A stretch of 64,000 nucleotides of DNA, taken from Methylocystis sp. Sn-Cys (GTDB lineage: Bacteria; Pseudomonadota; Alphaproteobacteria; Rhizobiales; Beijerinckiaceae). The stretch lies in NCBI RefSeq assembly GCF_016745395.1, contig NZ_JAERVJ010000003.1, positions 1-64,000 on the forward strand, written 5' to 3'. Both the position numbers and the translations under genes were made by a program. Every line of letters starts with the position of its first letter. Positions within the stretch are counted from its first letter, which is position 1. Positions 11,019 to 30,400 of the stretch are shown here, one piece after another. Below the pieces are notes generated by a model. It made no database searches. It saw only the letters and a program-made list of their open reading frames with translations, and was not told where the DNA came from.

Positions 11019-11429
11019 TCAGTGCGCGGCGCCGAGGGACTGAACCGCTTGCTGGCACGCCTGTTCGCAGCTCTGACAGGCCTCCGCGCAGATACGGCAA
11101 TGCTCATGCGACTGCGCGTGCTTCTGGCATTCGTCTGCGCAGAGGCGGCAGGCCAGCATGCAGCTCTCCAGCGTCGAACGGATGATCTCCTCATTGCTTC
11201 CCGTGCGGCGCGTTGCGATCGCCCCGGCTGCAAAGCAAATGTCCGCGCAATCGAGGTTGAGGCGGATGCACTGCCTGAGGCGCGTGACCTCTTGCTCCCC
11301 GATACAAGCGTCGGCGCAGGAAATGCAGCTCTGTCCGCAGTCGTAGCATTCCTCGATCGCGCGGATCAGGGCTTGGTTGGTCTGCCCCTTTACGTCTGGA
11401 TGCGTCCCGATGATCTCCTGAGTGTGCAT
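11019..11429 (-). CDS. csp3: Cytosolic copper storage protein, Csp3-like (DUF326)
   Basis: 136 residues, 17 of them cysteine, mostly in CxxC/CxxxC spacing along predicted helices (for example CYDCGQSCISCADAC and CRICAEACQSCEQAC). This is the four-helix-bundle copper storage family first characterised in Methylosinus trichosporium, in which cysteines pointing into the bundle bind many Cu(I). No signal peptide or twin-arginine motif is present, so it fits the cytosolic Csp3 branch and not the exported Csp1/Csp2. A longer reading starting at 11462 exists, but the ATG at 11429 has GGAG eight bases upstream. The gene is monocistronic and convergent with the secretion operon, and divergent from the copper locus that follows. 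Confidence 0.93.
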   Translation of the reverse strand: MHTQEIIGTHPDVKGQTNQALIRAIEECYDCGQSCISCADACIGEQEVTRLRQCIRLNLDCADICFAAGAIATRRTGSNEEIIRSTLESCMLACRLCADECQKHAQSHEHCRICAEACQSCEQACQQAVQSLGAAH

Positions 11430-11917
11430 GAGGCTTCTCCGCAGGTTGAGACGCGGGAACAACCCTGCCCATGCGAAATTGTTTCCGGCGGCGCCCTAGC
11501 GGGCTTTCCGGTGGTATGGAATCGTGCGAGCGATATAAGAGCGCACAGATACAAAGAACTGGAGCGCATTCTTTTCGCAAAAGCCGATCAACTTTGGCGG
11601 GATGGGGTGTAGTCGCGGTCAAGACGGAGATGGCGCCTATTGGAAAAGATTAAACTATAAGTTGCTAAAATGTCTTTACGCTCGGGATGGACGAGTTCTC
11701 GGCCTGGATGGGGCGGTTCCCGTGGCGATCTGCTCGACCGACCGCGTTACGATCTTTCGTTCTCCCACCCGCCAAGGTCTCGTCCGCGTTCCAGATTTCA
11801 CGCCGACGGTCGCTGAAAGGCGTGATTTTCAGAGCCTTATCCAAATGCAAAGGGTGGATAGGACAAGCGCGACCATGGAGCTTGACACTCTACAGACTTC
11901 GGCCATTTTAGGGGGCG
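11430..11917. other. Intergenic region: dispersed repeat plus divergent promoter space
   Basis: Between the divergent csp3-like gene and the DUF2946-like gene. It holds one dispersed GAGCGCATT-type repeat (about 11515-11600) and an AT-rich stretch near 11640-11680. Reading frames here show no family resemblance. A TTGACA at 11882 with ATTTTA 17 bases on resembles a sigma-70 promoter, but its -10 box abuts the ribosome binding site AGGGGG of the next gene, so I do not call it. Confidence 0.5.
11515..11600 (+). repeat. Dispersed GAGCGCATT-type repeat, copy 1
   Basis: The run atggaatcgtgcgagcgat...ggagcgcattcttttcgcaaaa...ttggcggg is the inverse of the copy at 15276-15372 (agagcgcattccgcaaagtg...gcgctccagctttt...catgatcccatgcgag). 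The same motif set is a familiar dispersed element of alphaproteobacterial genomes. It probably forms a long imperfect stem-loop. Confidence 0.7.
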
Positions 11918-12316
11918 ATGGCTTGGCGGCGGATAAAATACAGCAGCTTTCGGCGCGCGTTTATCGCTTGCGCCACGCTATCTATTTTTATGCTTCAGCT
12001 CGCGTCATTAGCGGGAGCGATAAAGCTTTCCGGGGTCATCGGTCTATACGCATCCTCGGAAGCCGCCGCCTTGTGCAGCCTGGAGGGCGATAACGCCGCT
12101 CCGGCGCATGGCGACAGCCATCATTCCAAATGCCGCGACCATTGTTTGGCGAGCGGCCGCGCGGCGTCTGCTCTGGCGTTCGCGGTCACTTGCTTCGCTA
12201 TCCTGGACTTGTTCCCCGAGCGCCAAATCGCCGCTTATGGCCTCTTGGACGAACCCTGGCCCATCCCGGGCCGGTTGAATAGCTGGTCGTCTCGCGCGCC
12301 ACCCTTCTTCTCCTGA
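11918..12316 (+). CDS. Small membrane/exported protein with Cys-His cluster (DUF2946-like)
   Basis: 132 residues, ATG preceded by AGGGGG. Residues about 12-35 form a hydrophobic N-terminal helix; a second hydrophobic segment lies near 85-100. Between them is a metal-ligand cluster HGDSHHSKCRDHC (about 64-76), and Cys53 lies just before it. The layout (helix, CHxxH-type cluster, helix) resembles DUF2946 proteins, which often sit next to copper genes. It precedes the ECF sigma factor gene by 76 bases and likely shares its operon. A copper-binding role is inferred from ligands and neighbours only. Confidence 0.65.
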   Translation: MAWRRIKYSSFRRAFIACATLSIFMLQLASLAGAIKLSGVIGLYASSEAAALCSLEGDNAAPAHGDSHHSKCRDHCLASGRAASALAFAVTCFAILDLFPERQIAAYGLLDEPWPIPGRLNSWSSRAPPFFS

Positions 12317-12392
12317 TCGACCGAACGCAGCCAGAGTCTGCGCAAGATAATTTCGGTTCTCGCGGCCGACAGCGCCGTCAGGGAGAAGCAAC

Positions 12393-12944
12393 GTGTTTTC
12401 AACCGTTTCATCGAGCGGCGAGCAGTCGCATGCTCCCGTTGGGGAAGCTTATTCGCTTCGCGAGGTCTTTCTTTCGAGCCGAGGAGACCTTCTCCGCTAC
12501 CTCACGCGAAAGGTCGGCTCGACCGACGCGCCGGACCTTCTTCAAGAGACCTTTGTCCGAGTCGTCCGGCTGGAAAAGCCGGAGAGAATCAACGATCCGC
12601 CGGCCTTCCTAAAAACGATCGCGACTAATCTGGCGCGCGATTTTGTGCGCCGCCGGAGAACCGAAGCGGGCTACATCCAATTTGGCGACTATCTGGTCGA
12701 AGCGCCGTCCGCAGATGCTCCCGCCGACGAACGTCTGGATTATGAACGTAAATCCCGCCTGCTCGACGTGGCTGTCAGCTCTCTGCCGCCGCGGTGCCGG
12801 GAGGTTTTCAAGCTTCATATCTACGAAGACGTTCCCCTCCACGAGATTGCGCGGAAATTAGAGATCTCCGACAGGATGGTGCGTAAGCATCTCAGCCTGG
12901 CTTTCCGGACCTGCCGCGCCGCGCTCAAATCTTCTTTAGAGTGA
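12393..12944 (+). CDS. ECF sigma factor, FecI/MbnI-like
   Basis: 183 residues from a GTG with GGAG 8 bases upstream. Sigma region 2 is clear at about 25-95 (LLRYLTRKVGSTDAPDLLQE, then FLKTIATNLARDFVRRRR), and region 4 with a helix-turn-helix at about 125-178 (LPPRCREVFKLHIYEDVP, HEIARKLEISDRMVRKHLS). This is the FecI-type iron/metal-starvation subgroup. A FecR-like partner lies at 15703 and a TonB receptor with a signalling domain at 22853, completing the usual surface-signalling trio. The arrangement resembles mbnI of methanobactin operons. Likely controls the MbnP/MbnH genes and the receptor; its promoter motif was not identified. Confidence 0.9.
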   Translation: MFSTVSSSGEQSHAPVGEAYSLREVFLSSRGDLLRYLTRKVGSTDAPDLLQETFVRVVRLEKPERINDPPAFLKTIATNLARDFVRRRRTEAGYIQFGDYLVEAPSADAPADERLDYERKSRLLDVAVSSLPPRCREVFKLHIYEDVPLHEIARKLEISDRMVRKHLSLAFRTCRAALKSSLE

Positions 12945-13145
12945 CACGAGCCCACTGCAGAAAAAAATTCCCGCGGCGAGGTTCCTTATTCTCGATCTGA
13001 TGCGTCTAAGGAGCTTGGGACAACCTATAGCTCTGATGATCTGACGGGGAGTGCGACCATTGGCTCGATGAGGGCGCGTCAAGACGTATAGAAGATTAAC
13101 CGCGCGCCGTATGTGTTTTCCGGTCTGCGAATGAGGATCGAAGCG

Positions 13146-14098
13146 ATGTTGGGATCGATTGGAAGGACTGCATTTTGGCTGCTATTGACGCTCGCGGCGC
13201 TCGCCGGCGTCGGAGAGGCCGCAGCGAAAGATTTGCCTGTCGCCATCAACTTCGGACTGATGGCGGATGGAAAGGATGTCGGTTGCGGGGCGCCGCTCGC
13301 CAATCTCGGCGTCGCCCATCTGCAGGCCAAGCTCCATGAGGCGCGTTTTTACATCTATGGCGTGAAGCTCATCGACGCCAAGGGCATACGTACGCCCGTG
13401 GCGCTCGCGCAAAATGAATGGCAGTACGGCGACGTCGCTTTGGTCGACTTCAAAGACGCGCGCGGCGGCAACGCTCCCTGCACGGAGAGCAATCCGGCCA
13501 AGAATGCGAGGATTTCCGGGACCGCGCCGCGCCGCGCCTATGTCGGTCTGGAATTTTCCGTCGGCGCGCCTGTGGAGACGATTATCGACGGAAAGCCCGT
13601 CTCCATCAACCATTCCAACGTCGAGACGGCGCCGCCGCCGCTCGATGTCGCCGGCATGGCGTGGAATTGGCAGGCCGGGCGTCGATTCCTGGTGTTCGAG
13701 GTCGATCCGCCGTCTCCGATCGTCAAAGCGGACGGTTCCAAGACCAAGACCTGGACGGTGCATCTGGGCTCGACGGGCTGCAAGGGTAATCCCGCCACGG
13801 GCGAAATCGTTTCCTGTGCGCATGAAAATCGTTTCACTGTGACCTTCGACCGTTTCGACCCGAAGACGCAGCGCGTCGAATTCGACCTCACCCGGCTCTT
13901 CGAGAACAGCGACCTTCTTGTCGATAAGGGCGGCGCGGTCGGTTGCATGAGCGGGCTCGATGATCCGGAATGCCCCGCGATTTTCGCCGCGCTTGGCCTC
14001 AATCTCACGGGCGCCGACGGGACGGCAGGCAAGCAAACGAAGCCAGGCGCCTCCCCGGTCTTCAAGGCCGGCCTCGCGAAATTGGCGGGAGGCAAGCA

Positions 14099-14102
<4 letters not shown>
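13146..14102 (+). CDS. mbnP: MbnP-family periplasmic copper-binding protein
   Basis: 318 residues with a clear signal peptide ending near AAAKDL. The ATG at 13146 has AGGA eight bases upstream; GTG 13113 and ATG 13131 are weaker options. Family landmarks: VGCGAP near the N-terminus, EARFYIYGVKL, an NEWQYGDVALVDF block, INHSN, PLDVAGMAWNW (about 163-175), and the cysteine block HLGSTGCKGN with later CAHEN and CMSG. In the characterised system MbnH oxidises a tryptophan of MbnP to kynurenine, which allows copper binding in the periplasm. Conserved tryptophans are present, but I cannot assign the modified one. It overlaps mbnH by ATGA, so the two are made together. Confidence 0.9.
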
Positions 14103-15253
<1,151 letters not shown>

Positions 15254-15702
15254 CGAGAAGGCGGCGCCTCGTCATAGAGCGCATTCCGCAAAGTGGTGCG
15301 CTTTTGCGAAATGAATGCGCTCCAGCTTTTTGAAGCTGCGCGCTTTCTCGTCGCTCGCATGATCCCATGCGAGCGGAAAGCGCGCGAGAGGCGCCGCCAT
15401 CTTCGAACCCGCACCTTCAGTTGTGCTGAAACCGATGCTGGCGCATCTGCGCTCGCCGTGTCTCGCGGCTCCTCTTTGCCGGGCGCATGTTCTTTGTTGA
15501 CGCCCTCCTTGGGCGCTGATCTTTTGCCGGCCTCGTCGACAGGCGCCAATGCAGCGCCTTCCTGGAGAGAATATTTACGCCAACCCATGCGTTACGCGAT
15601 TCCGATCGGATTTCCGGGTCAGCTTGCATTTCGCGCGCAAGGAGTATTCTCTCGACTGAGCGCCATGCGAGCAGACGAAGAGCAGCAATTTCGGTTCGAT
15701 CA
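15254..15702. other. Intergenic gap between mbnH and the FecR-like gene
   Basis: 449 bases with one dispersed GAGCGCATT-type repeat (15276-15372) and no convincing gene. I looked for a methanobactin-type precursor (short leader with a Cys-rich core such as CGSxC or CASTC) on both strands here and found none. The last 60 bases before the FecR-like start are comparatively AT-rich but no promoter is called. Confidence 0.5.
15276..15372 (-). repeat. Dispersed GAGCGCATT-type repeat, copy 2 (inverted)
   Basis: Begins agagcgcattccgcaaagtg and ends near catgatcccatgcgagc; read on the minus strand it parallels the copy at 11515-11600. The two copies bracket the csp3-distal copper genes in opposite orientation. 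Confidence 0.7.
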
Positions 15703-16647
15703 ATGATGCCTGGCACTGAAACACCGCCCTCCGACTCCGACGATGCTGGAGACGAAGCCATCGACTGGTTCGTGAGGTTGAGGGCGGGACTGTCGTCCAA
15801 CGAGGAAAAGGCGGCTTTCGAGCAGTGGCGCGCCAAAGACGCGGAAAATGCGGCGGCCTTCGAGGAGGTCCTGCGGATGTTTGGCCATCTCGCCGGGATG
15901 AGCCCGTCGCGTCGGGCCCAAACGCCGCGCCATGGCGGTCGACGCCGTGCCGCGGCCGCGGTCGCCGGACTGGGGGCGGCTCTCGCGCTACTGCTGTCCT
16001 TGGGCGACGTCGCTACGCGACTCCGCGCAGATCACTATGCCGGCGTCGGCGAAAGGAAGGTCGTCGCCTTGGAAGACGGCTCAAAGGCGGAGCTCGATGC
16101 GAGTTCCTCTATCGCGGTCCGCTACGGCGCTGCGGAGCGGCGCGTGATCCTGCTGTCCGGCGAAGCCTGGTTCGATGTCGCGCGCGACCCCGCGCGTCCC
16201 TTTATCGTCGAGGCTGGCGAAGGATCGGCGACAGCGCTCGGCACCGCCTTCGACGTCGCCTTGAACGGTTCCGGCGCGCGCGTCACAGTGAATGAACATC
16301 GCGTGCTGGTCGTGAGCGGGGGAGCCTCGGTCGTGGTGGAGGAGGGCCAACAGAGCGCTTATGAGAGAGACGCAGCGGCGCGCGCGCCCGAAACCGTGGA
16401 CGTCGAGGCGGCGACCGCCTGGCGACGCGGGAAGCTGATCGTGACCAAGCTGCCGCTCGGCGACGTTCTGGCGACGGTTGGGCGTTACCATCGCGGCTTT
16501 ATTTATTGCGTCGAGCCTTCAGCTTGCAGTCGCCGCGTTTCTGGTGTTTTCGACGTCGCGGACGCGGCGCAGATCATTAGCGAAATCGAGATGTCGCTCG
16601 GTCTGCGCGCCATTCGTCTGACGCCGTTCGCGACCTTCTTGTATTGA
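15703..16647 (+). CDS. FecR-like anti-sigma factor / surface-signalling regulator (MbnR-like)
   Basis: 314 residues. N-terminal cytoplasmic DUF4880-like segment (residues about 18-65, with AIDWFVRLRAGLSSNEEKAAF), one membrane helix at about 84-103, then the periplasmic FecR domain with the hallmark stretches ALEDGSKAELDASSSIAVRY, LLSGEAWFDVARDPARPF and VEAGEGSATALGTAFDV. The C-terminal half has the STN-like fold expected to meet the receptor signalling domain. Known mechanism: the protein holds a FecI-type sigma factor until the ligand-loaded receptor signals. Unlike the usual fecIR pair, sigma and anti-sigma genes are separated here by mbnP and mbnH. Two adjacent ATGs (15703, 15706) lack a strong ribosome binding site. 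Confidence 0.88.
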   Translation: MMPGTETPPSDSDDAGDEAIDWFVRLRAGLSSNEEKAAFEQWRAKDAENAAAFEEVLRMFGHLAGMSPSRRAQTPRHGGRRRAAAAVAGLGAALALLLSLGDVATRLRADHYAGVGERKVVALEDGSKAELDASSSIAVRYGAAERRVILLSGEAWFDVARDPARPFIVEAGEGSATALGTAFDVALNGSGARVTVNEHRVLVVSGGASVVVEEGQQSAYERDAAARAPETVDVEAATAWRRGKLIVTKLPLGDVLATVGRYHRGFIYCVEPSACSRRVSGVFDVADAAQIISEIEMSLGLRAIRLTPFATFLY

Positions 16648-16799
16648 CGTTCGAGCGCCTGTGATTTCCGGTCTCTCTGCGTCGAAGGAGAAATAATGAG
16701 AAAAGAGACGCCGCAACGGCTCCGATATTGTGATGACCTCATGCGCTCGTCCTTTCCATTTCACGGCGCCCAGCAACCGCCCCTGTGGCGCGAAGCGAG

Positions 16800-19700
16800 A
16801 TGAACGTCTCCGCGCCTTTCATTCGACGCCCCGTCGCCACCACGTTAATTGCCGCCGCCCTCTTCCTGCTCGGCGCGCTCGCCTATTTTTTTCTGCCGGT
16901 CGCCAGCATTCCGTCCGTCGAGCGGCCGATCATCAGCGTCTCCGCCAATCGTCCGGGGACCGATCCGGCCACCATGGCGGCCTCGGTGGCTGCGCCGTTG
17001 GAACGGCGGCTCGCGGGCATATCCGGCGTTACCGAGCTCACTTCCGCCAATTCATACGGTTCGACGTCGATCACCCTCCAATTCGGGCTCGACCGAAACA
17101 TCGATGCGGCGGCGCGCGACGTGCAGGCTGCGATCAACGCGGCGATGACCGATCTTCCGTCCGACCTGCCGTCCCCGCCTTCCTTCCGCAAGGCCAGCTT
17201 GGCCGGGCCGCCGGTCTTCGCCCTCGCGATGACGTCGGATACGCTGCCGACCAGCGCGATCTATGACATAGCGGACACGGTCATCGCCCAGCGAATCGCG
17301 CAGATTCCAGGCGTCGCCGACGTAAGGATCGCTGGCGCCGAGCAGCCGGCAATCCGCATCCAGGCGGACCCGACGCGGCTTGCAAGCATGGGCCTCAGCA
17401 TCGACAGGGTGAGCGAGGCGATCCGGAAGGCCAATGTCCTCGGTCCGCTCGGCGCGCTCGACGGCGACGCGCGTTCCCTGACCTTCGGCGCAAACGGCCT
17501 CCTGTCGACGCCCGAGGAATTTCGTCAGATTGTGGTCGCTTCCTCGGCCGGCGCCGTGACGAAGCTCGGCGACGTCGCCTCTGTCGAGCTGGGCCCGCGC
17601 AACCGGCTGTCGGCCGGATGGTACAACGGCAAGCCTGCGCTTTTCGTCGTCGTCTCCAAGCAGCCGAGCGCCAATGTGATCGAGACGGTGGATCAGATAA
17701 AGGCGTTGCTGCCGAGATTGCAGAACTGGATTCCGAGCGGCGTCGACATCTCGGTGCTCACAGACCGCACGCAGACGATCCGCGCCAGCGTTTCGGAGAT
17801 CCAGCGCGCCTTGCTGATCTCGGTTATCCTCGTCATGCTGGTGGTGTTTCTCTTCCTTCGCCGCGCGGCGCCCACCTTTGCGGCGGGGATCACCGTCCCG
17901 CTCTCTCTTGCGAGCGCCTGCGTGGCGATCTGGGCGGCAGGATTCACGCTGGACAATTTTTCGCTTATGGCGCTGACGATCGCTGTCGGCTTCGTCGTCG
18001 ACGACGCCATCGTGATGATCGAGAACATCGAAAGGAATATCGAGCGCGGGATGGGGCGGCTCGCGGCGGCGCTCGAGGGCGCGCGGCAGATCGGCTTCAC
18101 GGTCGTCTCCATCAGCCTGTCTCTCGTCGCCGTGTTTGTCCCTCTGCTCTTCATGAGAGACACCGTCGGCATGATGCTGCGGGAATTCGCATTCACGCTG
18201 AGCTTCGCAATCGTTGCGTCGATGCTCGTGTCCTTGACGGTCACGCCGATGATCTGCGCACATCTTCGTTCGGCTCGTCCCGCGAGTCCGTCGGTCATGG
18301 ACCGGATCGTGGGCGGCGCGCTCGGCGCGATCCTGCGGCTCTATGCACGAACATTGCGGCCCGTCGTGGATCATCCGCGCGCGATGCTCCTCGTGATCCT
18401 GGCGACGATAGGCGTGACTGTGTGGCTCTATCTCACCATACCTCAGGGCGTCATGCCGCAGGATGACATCGGCCTTATCAACGGGACGTCTGAGGCCTCG
18501 CCCGAGATATCTTTCACGGGCATGGTCGAGCTGCAGCGGAAAGCCGCCGATGTGATCGGCGCCGATCCGGACGTCGTGGGGGTCGGTTCGGTCCTGGGCG
18601 GCGGCTTGGGCATGCTTGGCAATCAGGGGCGGTTTTTTATCGCGCTGAAGCCGGCGGGCCAGCGCAAAGCGACGAGCGCCGAGATTGTCGCGCGGCTGCG
18701 GCCGAAGCTTGCCGAGATCGACGGCTTGAAACTCTTCATGATCCCGGCGCAGGATTTTCGCGCGGGCGGCCGGCAGAGCAAGGCGCAATTTCAATTCACG
18801 CTTTGGGATGCTTCCGTCGAGGAGCTGGGACGATGGACCCCTAAAGTCCTTCAGCGTCTGAAAGCGTTGCCTCAGCTCGCTGATGTGTCGAGCGACGTGC
18901 AGAGAGGCGGCCTCCGAGCAAATGTGATGATCGATCGCAACGCTGCGTCCCGAATGGGCGTCGCAATCTCGTCGATCAACGCCGCGCTGAACAGCGCATT
19001 TGGCCAAAGGCAGGCGTCGATCATCTACACGGAGCGCAACCAATATCGCGTGATTGTCGAAGCGCCCGAATCGCGCCAGCGCAGCCTGCCCGATCTCGAA
19101 AGCGTCTATGTGACGGGGACCGGCGGACAGATCATGCCGCTCGCCGCGGTCGCGCGTATCGAGAGCGGGGCCATGCCGCTTGCCGTCAATCATCAGGGCG
19201 TCTCGCCGGCCATCACGCTGACATTCAACACGGCTCCCGGCTATTCGCTCGGCGCCGCCGCGGCGGCGGTGCGCGAGGCGGTCGAGGATCTGCGCATTCC
19301 AGATGGGCTACATGCCGAATTCGCCGGCGACGCGGCGGATTTCATCAAGACGGTGAAGGGGACGCCGCTCTTCGTGCTCGGCGCGCTCATTGCCGTCTAT
19401 ATTATCCTCGGCATGCTCTACGAGAGTTTTATCCATCCGTTGACGATCCTCTCGACGCTGCCGTCAGCCGGGCTGGGCGCGCTGGTCGCGCTCGAAGCGT
19501 TTCAGACGCCATTCACCACCATGGCCTTGATCGGCGTTCTGCTGCTGATTGGCATCGTCAAGAAAAACGGCATCATGCTCGTCGACTTCGCGCTTCAGGC
19601 AGAGCATGAGAAGGGCCTCTCGCCGCACGACGCCATACTGGCGGCGGCGGCCGAGCGGTTCCGCCCGATCCTGATGACGACGCTGACAGCAATGCTGGGC

Positions 19701-19931
19701 GCGCTCCCCCTCGCTTTGGCGACGGGCGTCGGCGCCGAATTGCGCCGCCCGGTCGGCGTCACCATTGTCGGCGGTCTGCTTCTCAGCCAGATCATGACGC
19801 TCTATACGACGCCGGTGATCTATCTCGTCATGAGCAAGCTGCAAAGAAGGGCGCCGCGCCGCAACGCCGAAGCGCCGATCGGCTCAGAGGAAGCGGTTGG
19901 TTGTAGCGGGGGGCTACAGCCGCGCAGTTGA
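16800..19931 (+). CDS. RND superfamily (HAE1, MdtB/MdtC-like) transporter lacking its own adaptor
   Basis: 1043 residues, full RND length, with the standard 1+5 / 1+5 helix plan and two large periplasmic loops. N-terminus MNVSAPFIRRPVATTLIAAA is typical of MdtB/MdtC. The proton-relay motif is present as VGFVVDDAIVMIENI (about residue 395), and the C-terminal half contains LLIGIVKKNGIMLVDFA. A GTG 15 bases upstream is a possible start. No membrane fusion protein or outer membrane factor gene is adjacent, which is unusual. Its position between the FecR-like and TonB-receptor genes suggests export of a metallophore, metal complex or apo-ligand, but the substrate is not shown by sequence. Confidence 0.9.
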   Translation: MNVSAPFIRRPVATTLIAAALFLLGALAYFFLPVASIPSVERPIISVSANRPGTDPATMAASVAAPLERRLAGISGVTELTSANSYGSTSITLQFGLDRNIDAAARDVQAAINAAMTDLPSDLPSPPSFRKASLAGPPVFALAMTSDTLPTSAIYDIADTVIAQRIAQIPGVADVRIAGAEQPAIRIQADPTRLASMGLSIDRVSEAIRKANVLGPLGALDGDARSLTFGANGLLSTPEEFRQIVVASSAGAVTKLGDVASVELGPRNRLSAGWYNGKPALFVVVSKQPSANVIETVDQIKALLPRLQNWIPSGVDISVLTDRTQTIRASVSEIQRALLISVILVMLVVFLFLRRAAPTFAAGITVPLSLASACVAIWAAGFTLDNFSLMALTIAVGFVVDDAIVMIENIERNIERGMGRLAAALEGARQIGFTVVSISLSLVAVFVPLLFMRDTVGMMLREFAFTLSFAIVASMLVSLTVTPMICAHLRSARPASPSVMDRIVGGALGAILRLYARTLRPVVDHPRAMLLVILATIGVTVWLYLTIPQGVMPQDDIGLINGTSEASPEISFTGMVELQRKAADVIGADPDVVGVGSVLGGGLGMLGNQGRFFIALKPAGQRKATSAEIVARLRPKLAEIDGLKLFMIPAQDFRAGGRQSKAQFQFTLWDASVEELGRWTPKVLQRLKALPQLADVSSDVQRGGLRANVMIDRNAASRMGVAISSINAALNSAFGQRQASIIYTERNQYRVIVEAPESRQRSLPDLESVYVTGTGGQIMPLAAVARIESGAMPLAVNHQGVSPAITLTFNTAPGYSLGAAAAAVREAVEDLRIPDGLHAEFAGDAADFIKTVKGTPLFVLGALIAVYIILGMLYESFIHPLTILSTLPSAGLGALVALEAFQTPFTTMALIGVLLLIGIVKKNGIMLVDFALQAEHEKGLSPHDAILAAAAERFRPILMTTLTAMLGALPLALATGVGAELRRPVGVTIVGGLLLSQIMTLYTTPVIYLVMSKLQRRAPRRNAEAPIGSEEAVGCSGGLQPRS

Positions 19932-19998
19932 AAATTCGATGAAGTCGCGAAAGCGCCTCGGGGAGATGGGGAAACGCCGCGGTCAGTGCTCTGAAATG

Positions 19999-20226
19999 TC
20001 GATTGGTTCGCTGTCATTCCCGACGCTCGCAAACCGAGCGATCGGGAATTACCGCCGTCATTGCGAGGAGGCGGAGCCGACGAAGCAATCCAGGGCGGCG
20101 CCGCTGCCTGGATTGCTTCGCTTCGCTCGCAATGACGGGCTCTGAGTAAAACCAGCGCTTTTTGGGCTCTGTATTCCCGACGCTCGCTCAAGCGAGCGTC
20201 GGGAATGACAGGGAACCGGTCAAGCG
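19999..20226. repeat. Composite dispersed repeat (CATTCCCG-type flanking CGTCATTGCGAG-type)
   Basis: Between the RND gene and the receptor gene. The outer parts (cattcccgacgctcgcaaaccgagcgatcgggaat and the near-inverse cgacgctcgctcaagcgagcgtcgggaatg) form palindromes. The inner part 20056-20137 starts cgtcattgcgaggaggcgga and ends attgcttcgcttcgctcgcaatgacg, a long hairpin seen again at 30668-30750. The gap holds no gene. Confidence 0.85.
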
Positions 20227-20267
20227 AATCTCGTATCAAACCACACCGCCGGAAATCCGCTCGATGG

Positions 20268-22853
20268 TCAGAATTCCAGACGCAAGGAACCAAGTATGGT
20301 TCTCGGGGGGCCGGCCATGATCTGGAACCGGGACGCGGCGCTCGCATAATATGTCGTGTCCAGGAGATTCTTTGCGTTGAGCTGCGCGGTGAGATGCGCG
20401 GGACCGACGTCGAAGCGATAAGAGATCATTCCATTCAGGATTGCATAAGCCGGAATGGTGAAGGAGTTGGCGTTGTCGCCAAAGGCGCTTCCCACGACTT
20501 GCGCGCCGCCGCCGATGCTGAGGCCTTGGAATGAGCCGTCAGCGTCATATTTGACCCAAAGATTGCCCATGTTCTTGGGAACGGTTGGAAGCCGGTTCCC
20601 GGCAATGAATAACTGAGTGTTGATCTCGGTGAGCGGATTGTAGAGCGAGCCTTTGGTGACGCGTGCGTCGTCATGTGTATAATTGGCGATCACGCTCCAA
20701 TTTTCGTTTATTTGGCCCTTTAGATCGACCTCGAATCCTTTGCTTTCGGCTTCGCCCGCCACCAGCGTGTTGCCGGGATTGGTCGGATCAGGCCCCGGGA
20801 CATTCGTCTTGACGAGATCGAAATAGGCCAGTGTCAGCAAGAGACGCTTATCCAAAAACTCCGCCTTGACGCCGCCTTCCCATTCATAGGATCGGACCGG
20901 AGGCAAGGGCGACGGGATCGCGCTGCCGGCGTTGAGCCCATTGTCGGCGTTCAGCGACTTCGTGTAATTGGCGTATAAGGAAAGCCAAGGCATCGGCTGT
21001 ATGGTTAGACCCACGCGTGGGCTAAACGCCTTGCTCAAATTCGGGCTCACGATCCAAGCGGTGCGCAGATCATTATTCTTGACCTGCCAGTTGGTCTCGG
21101 CCCAATCATATCGGCCGCCGAGAAGCAGATGGACTTTATCGTCCCAGAACGAAATCGTGTCCTGGGCGTAGACGCCCTTCCAGGATTCTGAATTTGTCGT
21201 GAAAAGATTGGGCGTTACGCCGGTATATCTGCTTCCGTAAATCGGCGCGTAGATGTTGAACGCGGGCAGATATTTCGACGCGGGAACGACAAGATAGAAG
21301 GGCGCGAGCGGCTGATAGTTGCTGTAATAATCGAACCCGACAAGCGTGGAATGGCTCAAGGGCCCGGTGACGAACTTGCCCTTCAGATCCAGATTTGTGG
21401 CCATGCCTTGGTTGGTGATGGACTGGTAATAGGAGCCGCGCGTCAGGGCGCCTGTCGCTTGGTTGAGGCCGATGAAAGACACCGACGACAAATCTTGCCC
21501 CTGACTCCGATAATAGAGCCTGTTCGTCAGGCTCCAATTTTTATCGATGTCGAACGTCCAGTCATAGCCATAGTATCTAAGGTCGAACCGCTGCGGAAGC
21601 TTGCCGGTGTATGATGGGTCTTGAAGATAGCGCGTGATTGGAATCGATGCGGGCCTGTTGCCGACCGCGACGGTGTTTGACTCGGGCACGAACACGTCAT
21701 GCATGAATTGCAAGTCGATATTGGCCCTGAACTGATCATTCGGGCGGATGGAGAGTGTCGGCGCCAGGAAGTAATATTCTTTGTTTGCAAAATCCTGGTA
21801 GGAGTCGGAGCGCACATAGCTGCCGTTGAAGCGATAGGCGAGCGTCTTCTCCTTGTTCAAAGGCGCGGTGGCGTCCACCGTTGTCCGGGTAAAGCCATAT
21901 GACCCGGCTTGCTGCTGCACGGAATAATATGGTGTGTCCAAGGGGCGTTTCGGCACGAGATCAACCAAGCCGCCGGGCTCGGATCGCCCATAGAGCATCG
22001 CTGCCGGACCTTTCAAAACGTCCACCGACTGAAGATTGGCGGTATCGACGTTCATAAGCTGGTACTGGCGCAGACCGTTGAAATAAACGCTTGTGTTCGT
22101 GGAAAAACCGCGAATCATCAGTCCTGTGTAGAATGAGCTGTTGGGCACGGCGAGCACGCCGCTCGAATTGCCCACAACCGCATCTTTGAGATCGATTGCC
22201 TGCTGATCGTCCATCGTCTGGCGCGTGATGACCTGCACCGAGAAGGGAGTCTTCAGCAGCGGCGCGTCGGTTTTCAGCGTTGTGCCGGCCGTGTCCGACA
22301 TGTAGCCGGTGAATCGTCCGCCGAGACCATCTTTTCCGGAGCCTTGGTCACGCGAGGCGGTTGCGGCGGACCGGCCGACTCCGCTCCCATGAGGCGCCTG
22401 TTCATTTGACTGAGGGGATGCGCCGACTTCGATCGGCGGCAAGGCTTGCGCATTGCGCGGGCTTGCGTCGCTCATCGTCCTGTTCGATTGGGCCAGCACG
22501 ATCGAAATCGCTTCCCCGTTCTCGCTGAGCCGGTAATTGAGCCCTGTTCCCGACAGCAGCGAGTCGAGCGCGCCAGAGAGCGTATAATCTCCGTTTAGCC
22601 CCGGCGTTGTGAGATTTTCCGTTAGACGCGAATGATAGAGAACGTGAAGGCCATTCGCATCCGCCAACCGGTTGAGAGCAACATCCATCGAGCTTTGAGG
22701 AATCTGGTAGGTTTTGACCGCCTGTGCGATTTCCCTGTTGGTCATCGAGGCATGCGCGACTGCGGGGCTGCCGGCGTCGATCGCTTTCACGGCCATGACG
22801 ATCGTAATCGCCGTTGTTTTCTTCCACTCGCTTTTGGCCGTTGTCTCGTTCAT
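20268..22853 (-). CDS. TonB-dependent receptor with signalling (STN) domain, MbnT/FpvA-like
   Basis: 861 residues from the ATG at 22853, which gives a plausible signal peptide ending near AVAHA; a longer reading to 22979 is rejected as it puts 42 polar residues ahead of it. Residues about 50-110 form the STN domain (QIPQSSMDVALNRLADANGL, TLSGALDSLLSGTGLNYRL), the part that talks to FecR. Then plug (TRQTMDDQQAIDLKDAV, LKGPAAMLYGRSEPGG) and a 22-strand barrel ending in LEF, the standard terminal Phe. Closest recognisable class is ferrisiderophore/methanobactin receptors. With the FecI- and FecR-like proteins it completes a surface-signalling system. Ligand (methanobactin, another chalkophore, or a siderophore) cannot be told from sequence. 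Confidence 0.9.
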   Translation of the reverse strand: MNETTAKSEWKKTTAITIVMAVKAIDAGSPAVAHASMTNREIAQAVKTYQIPQSSMDVALNRLADANGLHVLYHSRLTENLTTPGLNGDYTLSGALDSLLSGTGLNYRLSENGEAISIVLAQSNRTMSDASPRNAQALPPIEVGASPQSNEQAPHGSGVGRSAATASRDQGSGKDGLGGRFTGYMSDTAGTTLKTDAPLLKTPFSVQVITRQTMDDQQAIDLKDAVVGNSSGVLAVPNSSFYTGLMIRGFSTNTSVYFNGLRQYQLMNVDTANLQSVDVLKGPAAMLYGRSEPGGLVDLVPKRPLDTPYYSVQQQAGSYGFTRTTVDATAPLNKEKTLAYRFNGSYVRSDSYQDFANKEYYFLAPTLSIRPNDQFRANIDLQFMHDVFVPESNTVAVGNRPASIPITRYLQDPSYTGKLPQRFDLRYYGYDWTFDIDKNWSLTNRLYYRSQGQDLSSVSFIGLNQATGALTRGSYYQSITNQGMATNLDLKGKFVTGPLSHSTLVGFDYYSNYQPLAPFYLVVPASKYLPAFNIYAPIYGSRYTGVTPNLFTTNSESWKGVYAQDTISFWDDKVHLLLGGRYDWAETNWQVKNNDLRTAWIVSPNLSKAFSPRVGLTIQPMPWLSLYANYTKSLNADNGLNAGSAIPSPLPPVRSYEWEGGVKAEFLDKRLLLTLAYFDLVKTNVPGPDPTNPGNTLVAGEAESKGFEVDLKGQINENWSVIANYTHDDARVTKGSLYNPLTEINTQLFIAGNRLPTVPKNMGNLWVKYDADGSFQGLSIGGGAQVVGSAFGDNANSFTIPAYAILNGMISYRFDVGPAHLTAQLNAKNLLDTTYYASAASRFQIMAGPPRTILGSLRLEF

Positions 22854-24271: not shown

Positions 24272-24453
24272 GCGCCCACCTAGGCCCGCTCTCTGCGCAT
24301 GCGCCATCATGGGCGCCTCGGTGGCTGGCGCCACCGGCCAATGCGCGCGGGCGGCCCGGATTCTCCGTCTTACGATCTCATATCAGGCCCCCAGCGGGGC
24401 GGTAGCCCACTTGCGCGCAGCGACGCTTGCGCGTGAGGCGTGAGAGAACTCAG

Positions 24454-24846
24454 ATGCGACAGAACTTCTTGCGGCTTGTCGGCGCGACGGCTGTCTTCGC
24501 GCTCGGCCTCGGATATGCCCGCGCGGCGGTCGACGATTACGCATTTCAACTGGTTCAAACTCGAATCAAAACGGGGCAAAGCTTCGCCGATGTGCGCCTG
24601 GTCCATAAACCGGACGGCAAACTTGTTGGCGACGCCATTATTTTCGCCACGCGACTCGACATGGCGCCGGACGACATGGAATCGATGACGAGCGCCATCG
24701 AACTGACGCAAAGCCCTGAGCCTGGCCTTTACCGCTTCAAGGTCGATCTGACGGATGAGGGACGCTGGCGCATGTCCATCGCGGCGAAGATTCAGGGAGA
24801 GACCGGAACGCTCCAGGGCCGGCTGATCTTGCAGGCGACTCCATGA
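24454..24846 (+). CDS. Exported FixH/YtkA-like small protein of the Cus-type operon
   Basis: 130 residues with a signal peptide ending around ARAAVDD. The mature part reads as a single beta-sandwich (QLVQTRIKTGQSFADVRLVH ... GLYRFKVDLTDEGRWRMSIA), the pattern of FixH/YtkA-like domains found in heavy-metal efflux operons. Its ATG follows TGAGAGAACTCAG and its stop overlaps the next ATG (ATGA at 24843), so it is coupled to the outer membrane factor gene. Probable periplasmic accessory of the efflux system; the precise role is unknown. Confidence 0.7.
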   Translation: MRQNFLRLVGATAVFALGLGYARAAVDDYAFQLVQTRIKTGQSFADVRLVHKPDGKLVGDAIIFATRLDMAPDDMESMTSAIELTQSPEPGLYRFKVDLTDEGRWRMSIAAKIQGETGTLQGRLILQATP

Positions 24847-26075
24847 GGCGACTCGTTTTTTTGTCGATCTGCGTCGCGACAGGCGTTTTCGCTTCGCCTG
24901 TTTCGGGGGCGGAAAGGAGTCCGCCCGGCGCGACGGCGGAGAGCGTGGTGGCCTTGGCCAGGCGGCTCAGTCCAGAGCTCGCGGCCGCGGTTCTCGACGC
25001 CGACGCGGCCTTGCAGCGCGTGGGCGCCGCCGGGGTTCAACCCGACCCGACGGTCACCCTGCAGGCATGGGACGTGAACAGCAAGGGCGTCGGCCAGCGC
25101 TGGATCGGCGTCGAGCAGACCTTCAGGCTCTGGGGTAAGACGGACCTCGAAAAAGGCGTCGCCCAGGCGGACGCCGATGCGTCGCGGCATCAGAGCCAGG
25201 CGATGGAGGTCGATCTCGTCGCTCGTGTGAAGACGGCCTATGCTCAATACAGCGCCGCCCAGCGCGCGCTGGAATTATCGAGGTCGCTCCAGCAGCGCGT
25301 CGATCAGCTCCTGGAGCTGCTGCGGCTGCGTTATGGCGCGAGCTCGGTCGATCAGCAGGAGGTCATCAGGTCCGAGCTGGAGGCGGCCACCGCGGCCGCC
25401 GACGTCGCCCGCAGAGAAGGGGACGTCAAATCATCGGCCGCGCGCTTGAATGCGCTCATCGGCCGCGACGCGCGTGCGCCGCTGGCGCCGTCCAAGGGCT
25501 TTCCGCCGCTGAGAACAAAGCTGACGCTCTCCGGCGTCCAGGATCTTGCCCGGTCGTCGAATCCCCAGCTCGCGGCGACGCATGCGCAGGTGCGCTCCGC
25601 CACGACCAAGAAGGAATTGACCGACCTCAACTACTATCCGGACATCACCGCCGGCGCGAATTTCGTGCAGCGCCAGAGCGGCGAAAACAGCGGCATGTTC
25701 CTGCTGGGCTTCAAAGTGCCGCTGCAATATGAAGCGAAGGACGCCGAGCAGCGCGCGGCCAGCGCCAGTCTCGGGGCCGCGCAGGCGCGCAACGACGCGC
25801 TTCGTATCCGCCTCGACGGAGACGTCGCCGAGGCGTGGTATCGCTTGGAGGCCATCCGCAAGGCGATCAAAATCTTCGAGCAGCGCCAGCTTCCCCCGGC
25901 GCGGCTGTCTGTCGAGACGGCGCGCAGCGGTTTCGACGCCGGAACGACCAATCTCGCGACGCTTCTCGAATCCGAGCGGCGCCTGCGCGCCGTCGAACTG
26001 GAGCTTCTCGCTTTGAAGGTCGAGGAGCAGAGCAAATACGCCGACCTCGAACGTCTGGCAGGAGGCGCGCTATGA
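24843..26075 (+). CDS. cusC: Outer membrane factor of heavy-metal efflux system (CusC/CzcC-like)
   Basis: 410 residues with signal peptide (VFASPVSGAE). Two OEP repeats with extended coiled coils; family stretches include GATAESVVALARRLSPELAA at the mature N-terminus, and GVEQTFRLWGKTDLEKG. It provides the outer membrane channel for the CusB/CusA-like proteins encoded next. The stop overlaps the start of cusB (ATGA at 26072). No lipobox was seen, unlike E. coli CusC, so CzcC-type naming would be equally fair. Confidence 0.88.
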   Translation: MRRLVFLSICVATGVFASPVSGAERSPPGATAESVVALARRLSPELAAAVLDADAALQRVGAAGVQPDPTVTLQAWDVNSKGVGQRWIGVEQTFRLWGKTDLEKGVAQADADASRHQSQAMEVDLVARVKTAYAQYSAAQRALELSRSLQQRVDQLLELLRLRYGASSVDQQEVIRSELEAATAAADVARREGDVKSSAARLNALIGRDARAPLAPSKGFPPLRTKLTLSGVQDLARSSNPQLAATHAQVRSATTKKELTDLNYYPDITAGANFVQRQSGENSGMFLLGFKVPLQYEAKDAEQRAASASLGAAQARNDALRIRLDGDVAEAWYRLEAIRKAIKIFEQRQLPPARLSVETARSGFDAGTTNLATLLESERRLRAVELELLALKVEEQSKYADLERLAGGAL

Positions 26076-27448
26076 GCCGCGCAAAACTCATTTTTTCGGC
26101 CGTCCTCGCCGCTGTCGCGCTCGGCGCCGCCGGCCTGTGGCTGTGGCGCGCAGAGACGCCGCGCAACGCCGGCGAGATGCATGCGCAAGGGACCGGCCCA
26201 ATCATCTACTACCGTGATCCGGATGGCCCCTTCTATTCGATAAAGCCGAAGAAGAACGCCGCCGGCAAGGACTATGTCGCTGTCCGCGCCAGCGAGGATG
26301 TCTCCTTCGAGGACAAGCCGCCGGAAGTTGCGCAAACGCAATCGTCCGGCCGGCGCATTCGCTACTATCGCAACCCCATGGGCCTTCCGGACACGTCGCC
26401 CGTTCCCAAGAAAGACCCGATGGGGATGGATTATGTCCCGGTTTATGAGGACGAAGCGCAGGACGTTTCGACCGTCACCATCAGCCCTGGAAAGCTGCAA
26501 AAGACGGGCGTGCGTTCGGAGCCTGTCGAGCGACGGGCTGTGACCGTTCCTGTTCGCGCCGCGGGCCGTGTGGATTTCGATCCGCGGCGCACCGCGGTTG
26601 TCGCGCTGCGCTTCGAGGGCTTCATCGAATCCGTCGAGAAGGTCGCCGAGGGCGATTATGTGCATAAGGGCCAGCCGCTCATGCGCGTCTATGGGCCCGA
26701 CCTCTCCAGCGCAGCCGCGGAATATGTCGCCGTGCTCAACGCGCATTCGGCGGCGCGCATGGAAGGGGCGCGGCGCCGCCTCGTCAATCTCGGACTCGAC
26801 AACGCGACGATAGCCGCCATCGCCCGCAGCCGCCGCGTTCCGCGCGTCATCGACTGGCCCGCGCCGCAGGACGGCCATGTCATCGAGCGCACGGCGCTGA
26901 GCGGGATGCGCGCGGCGCCGGGCGAGACGCTGTTTCGCATCGTCGACCACAGCATCGTTTGGATTTTGGCGGACATACCCGAGCGCGACGTGGAGGCCGT
27001 GGCGCCGGGGCAAACGGCGATCATCCGCGCGCGCTCCTACCCCGATCATCCATTCAAAGGACGCGTCGCGCTCATCTATCCGCATCTGAATATGGAGACG
27101 CGCACGGCCCGCGTGCGCATCGAGCTGCCAAATCCGGAAGGGCGCCTGCTCGGCGATATGTTCGCCGACGTCGAGATCGAAGCGGGCGGCAAGGAGAAGG
27201 TTCTGGCCGCGCCCGAGAGCGCGATCATCGACGCCGGCAAGCGACAGGTCGTCATCCTCGATAAGGGTGAGGGGCATTTCGAGCCGCGCGAAATCAAGAT
27301 CGGGAAGCGCGGCGACGGCTATGCGGAAATTGCCAGCGGCCTTGCTGAGGGCGACCGCATCGTGACGTCGGCGAATTTCCTGATCGACGCCGAGAGCAAT
27401 CTCAAAGCTGCACTGCAGGCGCTCGATCACAGTGAGGCGGGGAAATGA
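26072..27448 (+). CDS. cusB: Heavy-metal efflux adaptor CusB-like, with two N-terminal metal-binding-type domains
   Basis: 458 residues; ATG preceded by GGAGG and overlapping the cusC stop. After an N-terminal membrane anchor (about 7-26) come two tandem heavy-metal-binding-type motifs: IIYYRDPDGPFYSIKPKK (about 45-75) and IRYYRNPMG...DPMGMDYVPVY (about 95-128). The second has the full HMBD pattern with methionines; the first has lost them (DPDG, NAAGKDYV). The rest is a standard adaptor: HlyD-like barrel-sandwich with VEKVAEGDYVHKGQPLMRVY, hairpin, and beta-barrel. It links CusA to CusC in the periplasm and may hand over Cu(I)/Ag(I). Confidence 0.9.
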   Translation: MSRAKLIFSAVLAAVALGAAGLWLWRAETPRNAGEMHAQGTGPIIYYRDPDGPFYSIKPKKNAAGKDYVAVRASEDVSFEDKPPEVAQTQSSGRRIRYYRNPMGLPDTSPVPKKDPMGMDYVPVYEDEAQDVSTVTISPGKLQKTGVRSEPVERRAVTVPVRAAGRVDFDPRRTAVVALRFEGFIESVEKVAEGDYVHKGQPLMRVYGPDLSSAAAEYVAVLNAHSAARMEGARRRLVNLGLDNATIAAIARSRRVPRVIDWPAPQDGHVIERTALSGMRAAPGETLFRIVDHSIVWILADIPERDVEAVAPGQTAIIRARSYPDHPFKGRVALIYPHLNMETRTARVRIELPNPEGRLLGDMFADVEIEAGGKEKVLAAPESAIIDAGKRQVVILDKGEGHFEPREIKIGKRGDGYAEIASGLAEGDRIVTSANFLIDAESNLKAALQALDHSEAGK

Positions 27449-30400
27449 TTGGCCGCCTCATTGCTTGGTCGGCCCGCAATCTTGTGCTCATCTTTGTGGG
27501 AACGGCCTTCGCCGTCGCCGCGGGACTCTATGCGCTGCGCACGCTGCCGCTCGACGCCATCCCGGATCTCTCCGACGTGCAGGCGATCGTCTATACGGAA
27601 TATCCTGGGCAGGCGCCGCAGGTGGTCGAGGATCAGGTCACCTATCCTCTCACGAGCGCCATGCTCACTGTGCCGCGCTCCAAAGTCGTGCGCGGCTTCT
27701 CCTTCTTCGGCGTCTCTTTCGTCTATGTCATCTTCGAGGACGGGGTCGACGTCTATTGGGCGCGCTCGCGCGTGCTCGAATATTTGAGCGCGGCGACAAA
27801 GCGCTTGCCCGCGGGCGCCGCGCCGGTGCTCGGTCCGGACGCCACGGGCGTCGGCTGGGTCTATCAATATGCGCTCGTCGCCAAGGAAATGACGCTCGCC
27901 GAACTGCGCTCGCTGCAGGATTGGACGCTGCGCTACGGGCTCGCCAAGGCCGAAGGAGTCGCCGAGGTCGCAAGCGTCGGCGGCTTTGTTCGTCAATATA
28001 ACGTCGTCGTCGATCCCAATCGCCTGCGCGCGCTCAACATCCCGCTCTCGCGCATTCGCGAAGTCATCCGCGCCAATAATGCTGATGTTGGGGGCCGCAC
28101 GGTCGAACTTTCGGAGTTCGAATTCATCGTGCGCGGCCGCGGCTATCTGAAGGGCGTCACTGACCTCGAAAACATCGTGCTGCGCGTCGGTGGAGGCACG
28201 CCGCTGCTCCTCAAGGATGTGGCGCGCATAGAGCTCGGCCCCGATGAGCGCCGCGGCATCACGGAGCTCAACGGCGAGGGCGAGGTCGCGAGCGGCATTG
28301 CGCTGCAACGCTACGGCGCCAACGCCCTCACGGTCATCGACAACGTCAAGGCGGCTCTGGCGCAGCTTGCGCCGAGCCTGCCCAAGGGTGTCGAGATCGT
28401 CCCGGTCTATGACCGCTCAGAGCTCATCCATGCGGCGATCGAAACGCTGCGCGGCGCGCTCGTCGAGGAAAGCGTCATCGTCGCGCTCGTCTGCGTCGTC
28501 TTCCTTTTGCATTTCCGCAGCGCGCTGGTGGCCATCATCATGCTGCCGGTCGGCGTGCTGATGGCCTTCGCGGCAATGAAGGCCCTGGGGCTCGGCTCCA
28601 ACATCATGAGCCTCGGGGGCATCGCCATCGCCATCGGCGCCATGGTCGACGCGGCGATCGTCATGATCGAGAACGCGCACAAACGTCTGGAGCGCGCCCC
28701 GCCCGATACGCCGCGCATCGATATATTGATCGACGCCGCGACCGAAGTCGGCCCGGCGCTGTTCTTCAGCCTGCTGATCATCACCGTGTCCTTCCTGCCG
28801 ATCTTCACTTTGGAGTCGCAGGAAGGGCGTCTCTTCAGTCCGCTCGCTTATACGAAGACCTTCGCCATGGCGTCGTCGGCGCTTCTGTCGGTCACGCTGG
28901 TTCCGGCGCTGATGGTGATTTTCGTGCGCGGCAAGATCGTATCCGAGGAGAGAAACCCGATCAATCGGGCGCTCATCTATATCTATCGGCCGATCATCCG
29001 CCTCGTGATGCGTTCGAAAATTCCAACCGTCGTTCTGGCGCTCGCGGCCGTCGCCGTCACGATCATTCCCGCACGCCAGCTCGGCTCCGAATTCATGCCG
29101 GCGCTCAACGAAGGCGCGCTGCTCTACATGCCGACGACGCTGCCGGGGCTTTCGGTGACCAAGGCCGCGCAATTGCTGCAGACGCAGGACCGGATCATCA
29201 AATCCTTTCCGGAAGTGAAATCCACCTTCGGCAAGGCGGGCCGCGCAGCGACGGCGACAGACCCGGCGCCGCTCGAAATGTTCGAGACGGTCATCGATCT
29301 CAAGCCGAAAGCGGAGTGGCGGCCCGGCGTGACCGTCGAAAGTCTCGTCGCCGACATGGACGCGGCGCTGCAATTTCCTGGCGTCTCCAACGCCTGGACC
29401 ATGCCGATCCGCAATCGCATCGACATGCTCGCCACCGGCATTCGCACGCCCGTCGGCGTCAAGATCATGGGGCGCGATCTCGCGCAGCTCGAAGGACTCG
29501 CGCGCCAGGTCGAGAAGGTCGTGAAAGGCGTTCGTGGCGCCGCGTCCGCTTATGCCGAGCGCGTCATGGGCGGTTACTATCTCGACATCATCCCTGATCG
29601 CGCAGCGCTCGCGCGTTACGGACTGATGATGGACGACGTGCAGGCGACCATTGCCACGGCCCTCGGCGGCGAAACAGTGACCACCACAGTGGAGGGGCGC
29701 GAGCGCTACGGCGTGAACGTCCGCTATCCGCGCGACTTCCGATCGAGTCCAAGGGCGATTGCGAGCGACGTGCTGATCCCGCTCGCTGGGGGCGGAACGA
29801 TCCCGCTGGGCGAGGTCGCGAAGGTGGAGCTGGTTCGCGGCCCGACGTCGATCCGCACGGAGAACGGGCAGCTCGCCGTCTATATCTTCGTCGATGTTCG
29901 GGACCGCGACATTGGCGGCTTCGTGACCGAGGCGCAAAAGGCCGTCTCCGAGGCGGTTCAATTCCCCGCCGGCTCCTATGCTGTCTGGAGCGGCCAATAT
30001 GAATATCTCGAACGCGCGGAAGCGCGCATGCGCGTCGTCGTGCCGGTGACGCTCGCGATCATTTTCCTGCTGCTCTATCTGAATTTCCGCAAGATCACCG
30101 AGACGCTCATCGTCATGCTGTCCTTGCCCTTCGCGCTTGTCGGCGGCGTTTGGCTGATGTGGTTCATGAACTTCAACATGTCAGTCGCCGTGGGCGTGGG
30201 TTTCATCGCGCTTGCAGGCGTCGCGGCCGAGACCGGCGTCGTCATGCTCATCTATCTCGACGCCGCGCGGCAGGAGATCGCGGCCCAACGCGCCGCGGAA
30301 GGGAAAGCCTTCACGAAGATGGATCTTCACAAGGCCATCATGCTCGGCGCCGTGGAGCGCGTGCGCCCAAAGATGATGACGGTCGTGGCCATCATGGCCG

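Follow-up and report, generated by a model that had tools for sequence, protein, structure and literature searches.

A probable methanobactin uptake and sensing locus without biosynthesis genes in a Methylocystis genome that carries a separate group II methanobactin operon

The genome of Methylocystis sp. Sn-Cys (4.02 Mb in 20 contigs), which belongs to the same Genome Taxonomy Database (GTDB) species as M. iwaonis, encompasses a compact row of genes that resembles the uptake and sensing part of a methanobactin (mbn) operon. The window analyzed here is a 64-kb stretch of contig 14, and coordinates without a prefix refer to it. On the plus strand, the row consists of a small DUF2946-like gene (11918..12316), a gene for a FecI-type extracytoplasmic function (ECF) sigma factor (MbnI-like; 12393..12944; Sigma70_r2 and r4_2 domains), mbnP (13113..14102; TIGR04052, 281.7 bits with a cut-off of 140; PDB 7l6g, E = 1.9e-145), the di-heme enzyme gene mbnH (14099..15253; TIGR04039, 486.3 bits with a cut-off of 362.85; PDB 6e1c, E = 2.6e-205), a FecR-type anti-sigma gene (MbnR-like; 15703..16647; PF04773 and PF16220) and a gene for an AcrB-family permease of the resistance-nodulation-division (RND) type (16785..19931). 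The minus strand encodes a TonB-dependent receptor with STN, plug and barrel domains detected by Pfam (20268..22853, with the start at either 22853 or 22979). MbnH contains two CXXCH motifs, and the ATG of its gene overlaps the stop codon of mbnP. The locus thus combines an STN/plug/barrel receptor, a FecI–FecR pair, and MbnP and MbnH above their curated cut-offs, that is, the MbnI-R-T set with MbnPH.

A first-pass annotation, made from the sequence alone, had named most of these genes, and the Pfam and TIGR models agree with it on the sigma factor, MbnP, MbnH, FecR and the STN-bearing receptor. The RND pump that it listed is indeed of the AcrB family and resembles MdtC/HAE1, with 1156 bits against an MdtC cut-off of 1774; it reaches only 341.7 of the 701 bits required by the CusA/CzcA model and, by that model, is not a copper-type pump. 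The DUF2946 label, in contrast, could not be substantiated for the gene that opens the row, for which a Pfam search up to E = 5 gave no match, whereas four small proteins at equivalent places in other loci score 19.3–22.5 bits, slightly below the cut-off of 23.7. The same annotation pointed out that the sigma and anti-sigma genes are split around mbnPH; this arrangement is real and is common to the related locus of another Methylocystis genome (G022), where mbnABCMF lie inside the split as well.

No mbnA, mbnB, mbnC, mbnM or mbnF was found in the 64 kb: none of 12 tblastn queries had a match there with an E-value under 0.46, although all 12 recovered their targets in control loci. The absence of MbnA, MbnB and MbnC noted in the first pass therefore holds for the window; it does not hold for the genome, and the candidate explanation that the genome lacks biosynthesis altogether was rejected when the genome-wide search uncovered an mbn operon on contig 17. 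Among the five DUF692 proteins of the genome, one is divergent, and the divergent one adjoins the precursor MKIRIAKRVELNVIGRASARCASTCAMTNG, which is in frame with a sigma factor. The contig 17 row comprises mbnP, mbnH, sigma-mbnA (NF040705, 388.5 bits with a cut-off of 350), mbnB (450; 325), mbnC (292; 185), mbnM (450.5; 285), mbnF (896; 800), a sulfotransferase gene and an adenylylsulfate kinase gene. The precursor core reads RCASTCAMTNG, and the core RCASTCAMT has been predicted for Methylocystis strain M as a group II type (PMC3621798). Judged by gene content, the cell is a producer of group II methanobactin. At L014 13455-14378, mbnA shares a single frame with the ECF sigma gene, and the model NF040705 is itself named “methanobactin precursor domain-containing sigma factor”; the fused product is putative, and a single sigma-mbnA frame has been reported for Methylocystis strains SC2 and SV97 (PMC3621798).

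The contig 17 operon thus has its own sigma factor, MbnP and MbnH, but the complete I/R/T set that a second cluster might have had is not there: no receptor was found in C17:46001-76000 around the operon, and no FecR was recognized in that region. The operon of a second genome of the same species (G006) likewise has no receptor and no FecR within a 20-kb stretch around it. On contig 8, a member of the receptor family associated with group II producers is encoded at C8:407480-409885 (about 56–58% identity to mbnPH-adjacent receptors of other group II operons), and a second receptor of this group II-linked type (45%) at C8:341164. In the genus survey described below, this family, taken at 55% identity or more, is present in 19 of the 21 mbnB-bearing genomes and is absent from G022, which carries only the FCSSC type of precursor.

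Our survey covered 39 Methylocystis genomes, 21 of which contain a total of 22 mbnB loci; the precursor could be read at 21 of these 22. Receptors at least 86% identical to that of the window occur in four of the 39 genomes: the window genome, G006 (99%), which carries the M. iwaonis replicon NZ_AP027143.1 (320,171 bp), G022 (89–90%) and M. parvus OBBP (86%). In M. parvus OBBP, the receptor belongs to an mbn operon with annotated mbnA, mbnB and mbnC on plasmid pMpar-2 (NZ_CP092970.1), in the order DUF2946-like, sigma, FecR, receptor, MbnP, MbnH, MbnA, B, C, M, F, two small genes and RND. In G022, the order is receptor, RND, FecR, mbnA, B, C, M, F, MbnH, MbnP, sigma and DUF2946-like. Both operons match the window in the receptor (86–90% identity), the RND permease (81% in M. 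parvus, 89% in G022) and MbnP/MbnH (73–92%), and both contain the sigma and FecR genes; the DUF2946-like gene keeps its position in M. parvus, in G006 and, in two copies, in G022. Unlike the window, the M. parvus and G022 operons possess mbnA, B, C, M and F, and gene order and strands differ among all three loci. The MbnH and MbnP of the G022 mbn operon both appear to be interrupted, and the MbnP/MbnH identities given for this genome come from an intact second P-H copy; the two G022 copies are 92.5% identical to each other and about 85% identical to the window genes, which points to duplication within G022. In the pMpar-2 record, the gene at NZ_CP092970.1 96997-98157 (L124 17613-18773) has the product “methanobactin export MATE transporter MbnM” but encodes an MbnH-like protein, 79% identical to the window MbnH, and the gene mbnM of the same record has the product “hypothetical protein”, so that the names look swapped.

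The precursors of M. parvus and G022 have an identical 16-residue core, FCSSCSGGGQCGCGPA. This core was found in two of the 21 precursors read, which are exactly those of the two operons with a window-type receptor, and the FCSSC core is absent from the seven precursors obtained from eight mbnB loci of Methylosinus (the locus on G114 C4 was unread). The group I methanobactin purified from M. parvus OBBP contains two oxazolones and an N-terminal Phe (PMC8788703), which fits the core FCSSCSGGGQCGCGPA as read from the gene; the other M. parvus precursor, with the core ...DCGTACWA, does not start with Phe. At the loci L103 and L104, an identical 16-residue core is combined with biosynthesis genes at saturated silent divergence (dS 1.5–2.6) and with receptors at a dS of 0.49, the core and receptor being kept together more tightly than the enzymes.

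Phylogenetic analysis of 52 receptors, from which three SB2-type receptors were excluded as too distant, places the receptors of the window, G006, M. parvus and G022 in one clade (support 100/100). Each of the 10 mbnB-linked rows, one of which (L111) lies about 13 kb from its mbnB, groups with this clade within a clade of 39 rows (100/100) and a group of 31 (94/97); for the remaining rows of the latter group, the stretches examined contain no mbnB. Seven uncharacterized siderophore-type relatives from other bacteria, which served as the outgroup in place of any characterized FhuA or FoxA, fall outside (100/100). The receptor of Methylosinus trichosporium OB3b that adjoins the published mbnA, MbnT1, belongs to the same tree group, is 51% identical (844 bits) to the window receptor, has an STN domain and lies beside I and R genes; unlike the window receptor, it is linked to its own mbnA, with the core LCGSCYPCSCM. 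Among the window-type receptors, the barrel and plug are nearly invariant (94% and 92% between the window and M. parvus; 94% and 94% between the window and G022), compared with the STN domain (68% and 86%, respectively) and the linker (40% and 58%). Such conservation of the ligand-handling part along with drift of the signaling part would be expected if the ligand is the same.

Taken together, these comparisons lead us to regard the locus as probably an intact methanobactin uptake and sensing system, devoid of the biosynthesis cassette and residing in a group II producer, that serves a foreign methanobactin of the FCSSCSGGGQCGCGPA type. The piracy proposed in the first pass, that is, uptake of a chalkophore made by others, accordingly stays the best reading, on grounds other than those originally given, but the picture of a cell that makes no methanobactin does not. 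The locus resembles MbnI2-MbnR2-MbnT2 of OB3b, in which MbnT2, with MbnI2 and MbnR2, works for a foreign methanobactin from outside the cell's own mbn operon and is 57% similar to the SB2 receptor (PMC9601215): in both cases, the cell is a producer and encodes an STN receptor with a sigma and an anti-sigma factor away from its own mbn operon, although for the window the foreign ligand is a prediction. The pairing is reversed: OB3b is a group I producer and its MbnT2, which we did not locate in the genome, handles a group II ligand, whereas the window genome is that of a group II producer and its receptor lies on the MbnT1 side. MbnPH pairs that stand alone close to MbnT-like receptors and to I and R genes were described in 2013 for strains OB3b, LW3 and LW4 (PMC3621798); like these loci, exemplified by L250 of OB3b, the window has I, R, T, P and H without mbnABC, but it differs from them in the RND gene, the split of the sigma and anti-sigma genes by PH, and an orthologue associated with a known precursor core. 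A receptor (46–50%), MbnP and MbnH also occur in a row at L109 (G004:C1), in a genome that looks complete and gave no MbnB match, a candidate non-producing user.

We infer the following mode of action for the ligand, regulation, MbnPH and the RND permease. The outer-membrane receptor would bind the copper-loaded form of the FCSSCSGGGQCGCGPA-type methanobactin that relatives such as M. parvus OBBP release, and the STN domain of the receptor would signal via FecR to free the ECF sigma factor and, by analogy with MbnI2-R2-T2 of OB3b, induce the receptor, MbnPH and RND genes. The complex would be imported through TonB, MbnP modified by MbnH would take up or otherwise handle periplasmic copper, and the peptide, once emptied, may leave through the RND permease. 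An orthologue of this permease is present in both operons with a window-type receptor, and a weaker relative (44%), together with an adaptor-like gene, adjoins mbnF in G001. The retention of the permease in the window, where mbnM is missing, suggests that it acts once the peptide has been imported and does not serve to export newly made peptide. When upstream sequences were compared by eye, no shared promoter motif was found.

The locus is under purifying selection and is not decaying. Every reading frame in it is open, and the ratio of nonsynonymous to synonymous divergence (dN/dS) between the window and G022 is 0.095 for the receptor, 0.089 for MbnH, 0.109 for the sigma factor, 0.132 for MbnP, 0.142 for the RND permease, 0.264 for FecR and 0.372 for the DUF2946-like protein (for MbnH, MbnP, sigma and DUF2946-like, the intact G022 copy in L113 was used). 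Between the window and G006, the values are 0.04–0.23, except for FecR. By blastn, window positions 15200-15273 align to the end of the G022 mbnH and positions 15616-16655 to the G022 fecR with 87 bp upstream; between these, there are 342 bp in the window (15274..15615) vs 6,787 bp in G022, comprising mbnABCMF and a transposase gene. G006 shares the junction of the window (98.8% over 561 bp). The junction includes, at 15274-15398, a copy of a dispersed repeat of about 120 bp, of which further copies, 79–85% alike, lie at 11487-11604 and on contig 17 (L014 6574-6699 and L015 5441-5559).

The short junction, its repeat and the transposase gene next to the G022 cassette fit a deletion in the M. 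iwaonis lineage. A simple deletion is, however, weakened by the receptors of M. parvus and G022 being sister to each other (94/83) and by the unequal synonymous divergence (dS) between these two genomes, so that a cassette that was never present in the window lineage has to be allowed for; either history may apply. The G022 cassette DNA, when searched against the window genome, matched only the genome's own mbnB (64%) and gave 40 short matches with E = 0.03 or worse, which leaves no remnant of the cassette elsewhere in the genome. In the group II operon of G032 (L119, G032:C36, at about 8804, compared with L115 7953-12881), 4.9 kb are missing from a stretch free of N: mbnP, mbnA, mbnB and most of mbnC are gone and mbnH is cut, whereas the receptor, mbnM, mbnF and mbnS are kept. 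Loss of production with retention of the receptor thus seems to occur in the genus, provided that the gap is a real loss and not an assembly error.

Several observations weigh against the interpretation of the locus as a system for the FCSSCSGGGQCGCGPA-type peptide. The association of receptor and core rests on two operons, and there are many close Methylosinus paralogues of the receptor with no mbn genes in the stretches examined, so that not every family member need bind methanobactin. The sigma factor and FecR of M. parvus are only 44% identical to those of the window (77% for FecR in G022), and dN/dS of FecR between the window and G006 is 0.49, albeit on few changes. Between M. parvus and G022, dS is 0.49 for the receptor and 0.64 for RND, compared with 1.50 for MbnB, 1.68 for MbnC, 1.68 for MbnM, 2.63 for MbnF and 1.41 for MbnH; the receptor and RND thus appear to be much younger, pointing to partly separate histories, and, given that the orthologues are sister, may have spread apart from the cassette.

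The receptor could instead import the cell's own group II methanobactin, in which case the locus would be the uptake part of the native system, unlinked from the rest. The lack of a receptor in C17:46001-76000 and the presence of MbnPH at both loci speak for this, but a receptor of the group II family is present at C8:407480, and a window-type receptor at 85% identity or more is missing from 17 of the 21 mbnB-bearing genomes of the genus. In addition, when 189 residues are aligned, the window receptor and the group II-linked L115 receptor are only about 23% identical, and the window receptor falls outside the MbnT-SB2/MbnT2 family (more than 40% identity, along the receptor, to one from a group II operon), to which the contig 8 receptors belong. 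The assignment of the window receptor to the contig 17 operon was rejected once the contig 8 receptors were found, and we consider this reading unlikely.

About equally unlikely, or slightly more so, is general scavenging of copper or xenometallophores, in which the receptor would take up other copper complexes and MbnPH would handle the copper with no methanobactin involved. Methylosinus commonly has MbnPH pairs and I-R-T-P-H loci that lack mbnABC, MbnPH are conserved far beyond producers (PMC3621798), and the Bordetella protein CrtA takes in copper bound in low-affinity chelates (PMC12914433); the plug and barrel of the window receptor are, nevertheless, nearly identical to those of receptors inside mbn operons that have one common core. 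That this is a ferric siderophore system, placed beside copper genes by chance, appears highly improbable. The receptor does score above the cut-off of TIGR01783 (“TonB-siderophor”; 325.7 bits), but so high a score (337 bits) is also obtained by the receptor of the M. parvus mbn operon, so that the name does not discriminate. Its closest solved structures are the siderophore receptors FoxA (236 bits) and FhuA, with no MbnT among the structure matches; the match to FoxA is far below the 844 bits to MbnT1 of OB3b, the orthologues lie inside mbn operons, and in the tree, for which the first-pass annotation had allowed the opposite outcome, the receptor does not cluster with the siderophore-type relatives.

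Returning to uptake of a foreign FCSSCSGGGQCGCGPA-type peptide, a more specific scenario is a cheater locus, which we offer as a speculation that is rather less than even in probability. M. iwaonis would descend from a producer of the FCSSC type that lost mbnABCMF and kept the receptor, regulators, MbnPH and RND; it would make a cheaper or different group II peptide and import the group I peptide of its neighbors, with the RND permease serving as a recycling pump for the emptied foreign peptide, kept even though the MATE exporter MbnM was lost along with the cassette.

The locus is flanked by other genes of copper metabolism. The divergent gene at 11019..11462 (minus strand), next to the repeat copy at 11487-11604, encodes a Csp3-type cytosolic copper storage protein (PDB 5arm, CSP3, E = 3.7e-45), in agreement with the Csp-type label of the first pass, although it scores 46 bits with the Csp1 model TIGR04401, below the cut-off of 100. 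Right past the receptor, at 24427-30609, there are a YtkA-like gene and a copper-type, CusCBA-type efflux set of TolC-like, CusB-like and CusA/CzcA (TIGR00914, 1182 bits with a cut-off of 701) genes, so that uptake and efflux loci are neighbors. A second relative of the TonB receptor (28%) is encoded at 40993-43179 (plus strand); the match contains a single in-frame TAG, and the gene is possibly broken.

Uptake of heterologous methanobactin by OB3b has been published together with a survey of alternative receptors (PMC9601215), and PMC12997803 cites Kang-Yun et al. 2022 under the title “Methanobactin theft”. MbnT2, isolated I-R-T-P-H loci and methanobactin theft are, therefore, already in the literature; what is added here is the pairing of producer and ligand and a specific predicted ligand. 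The locus type may be listed among the alternative receptors in Table S1 of PMC9601215. Our search of the literature on methanobactin and M. iwaonis, with most subscription journals outside its coverage, found nothing on the M. iwaonis locus, and the M. iwaonis paper examined (PMC12727199) makes no mention of methanobactin or copper.

An uncharacterized receptor is thus paired with a predicted ligand that has already been purified, the group I methanobactin of M. parvus OBBP, and the RND permease that recurs beside this receptor type becomes a candidate for determining the fate of the emptied peptide. The direction is opposite to that of the OB3b case, a group II producer being equipped for a group I peptide. 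If the prediction is correct, copper carriers would be shared or stolen both ways among methanotrophs of one genus, which would bear on copper competition, on the switch between the particulate and soluble methane monooxygenases (pMMO/sMMO) and on methylmercury breakdown in paddies.

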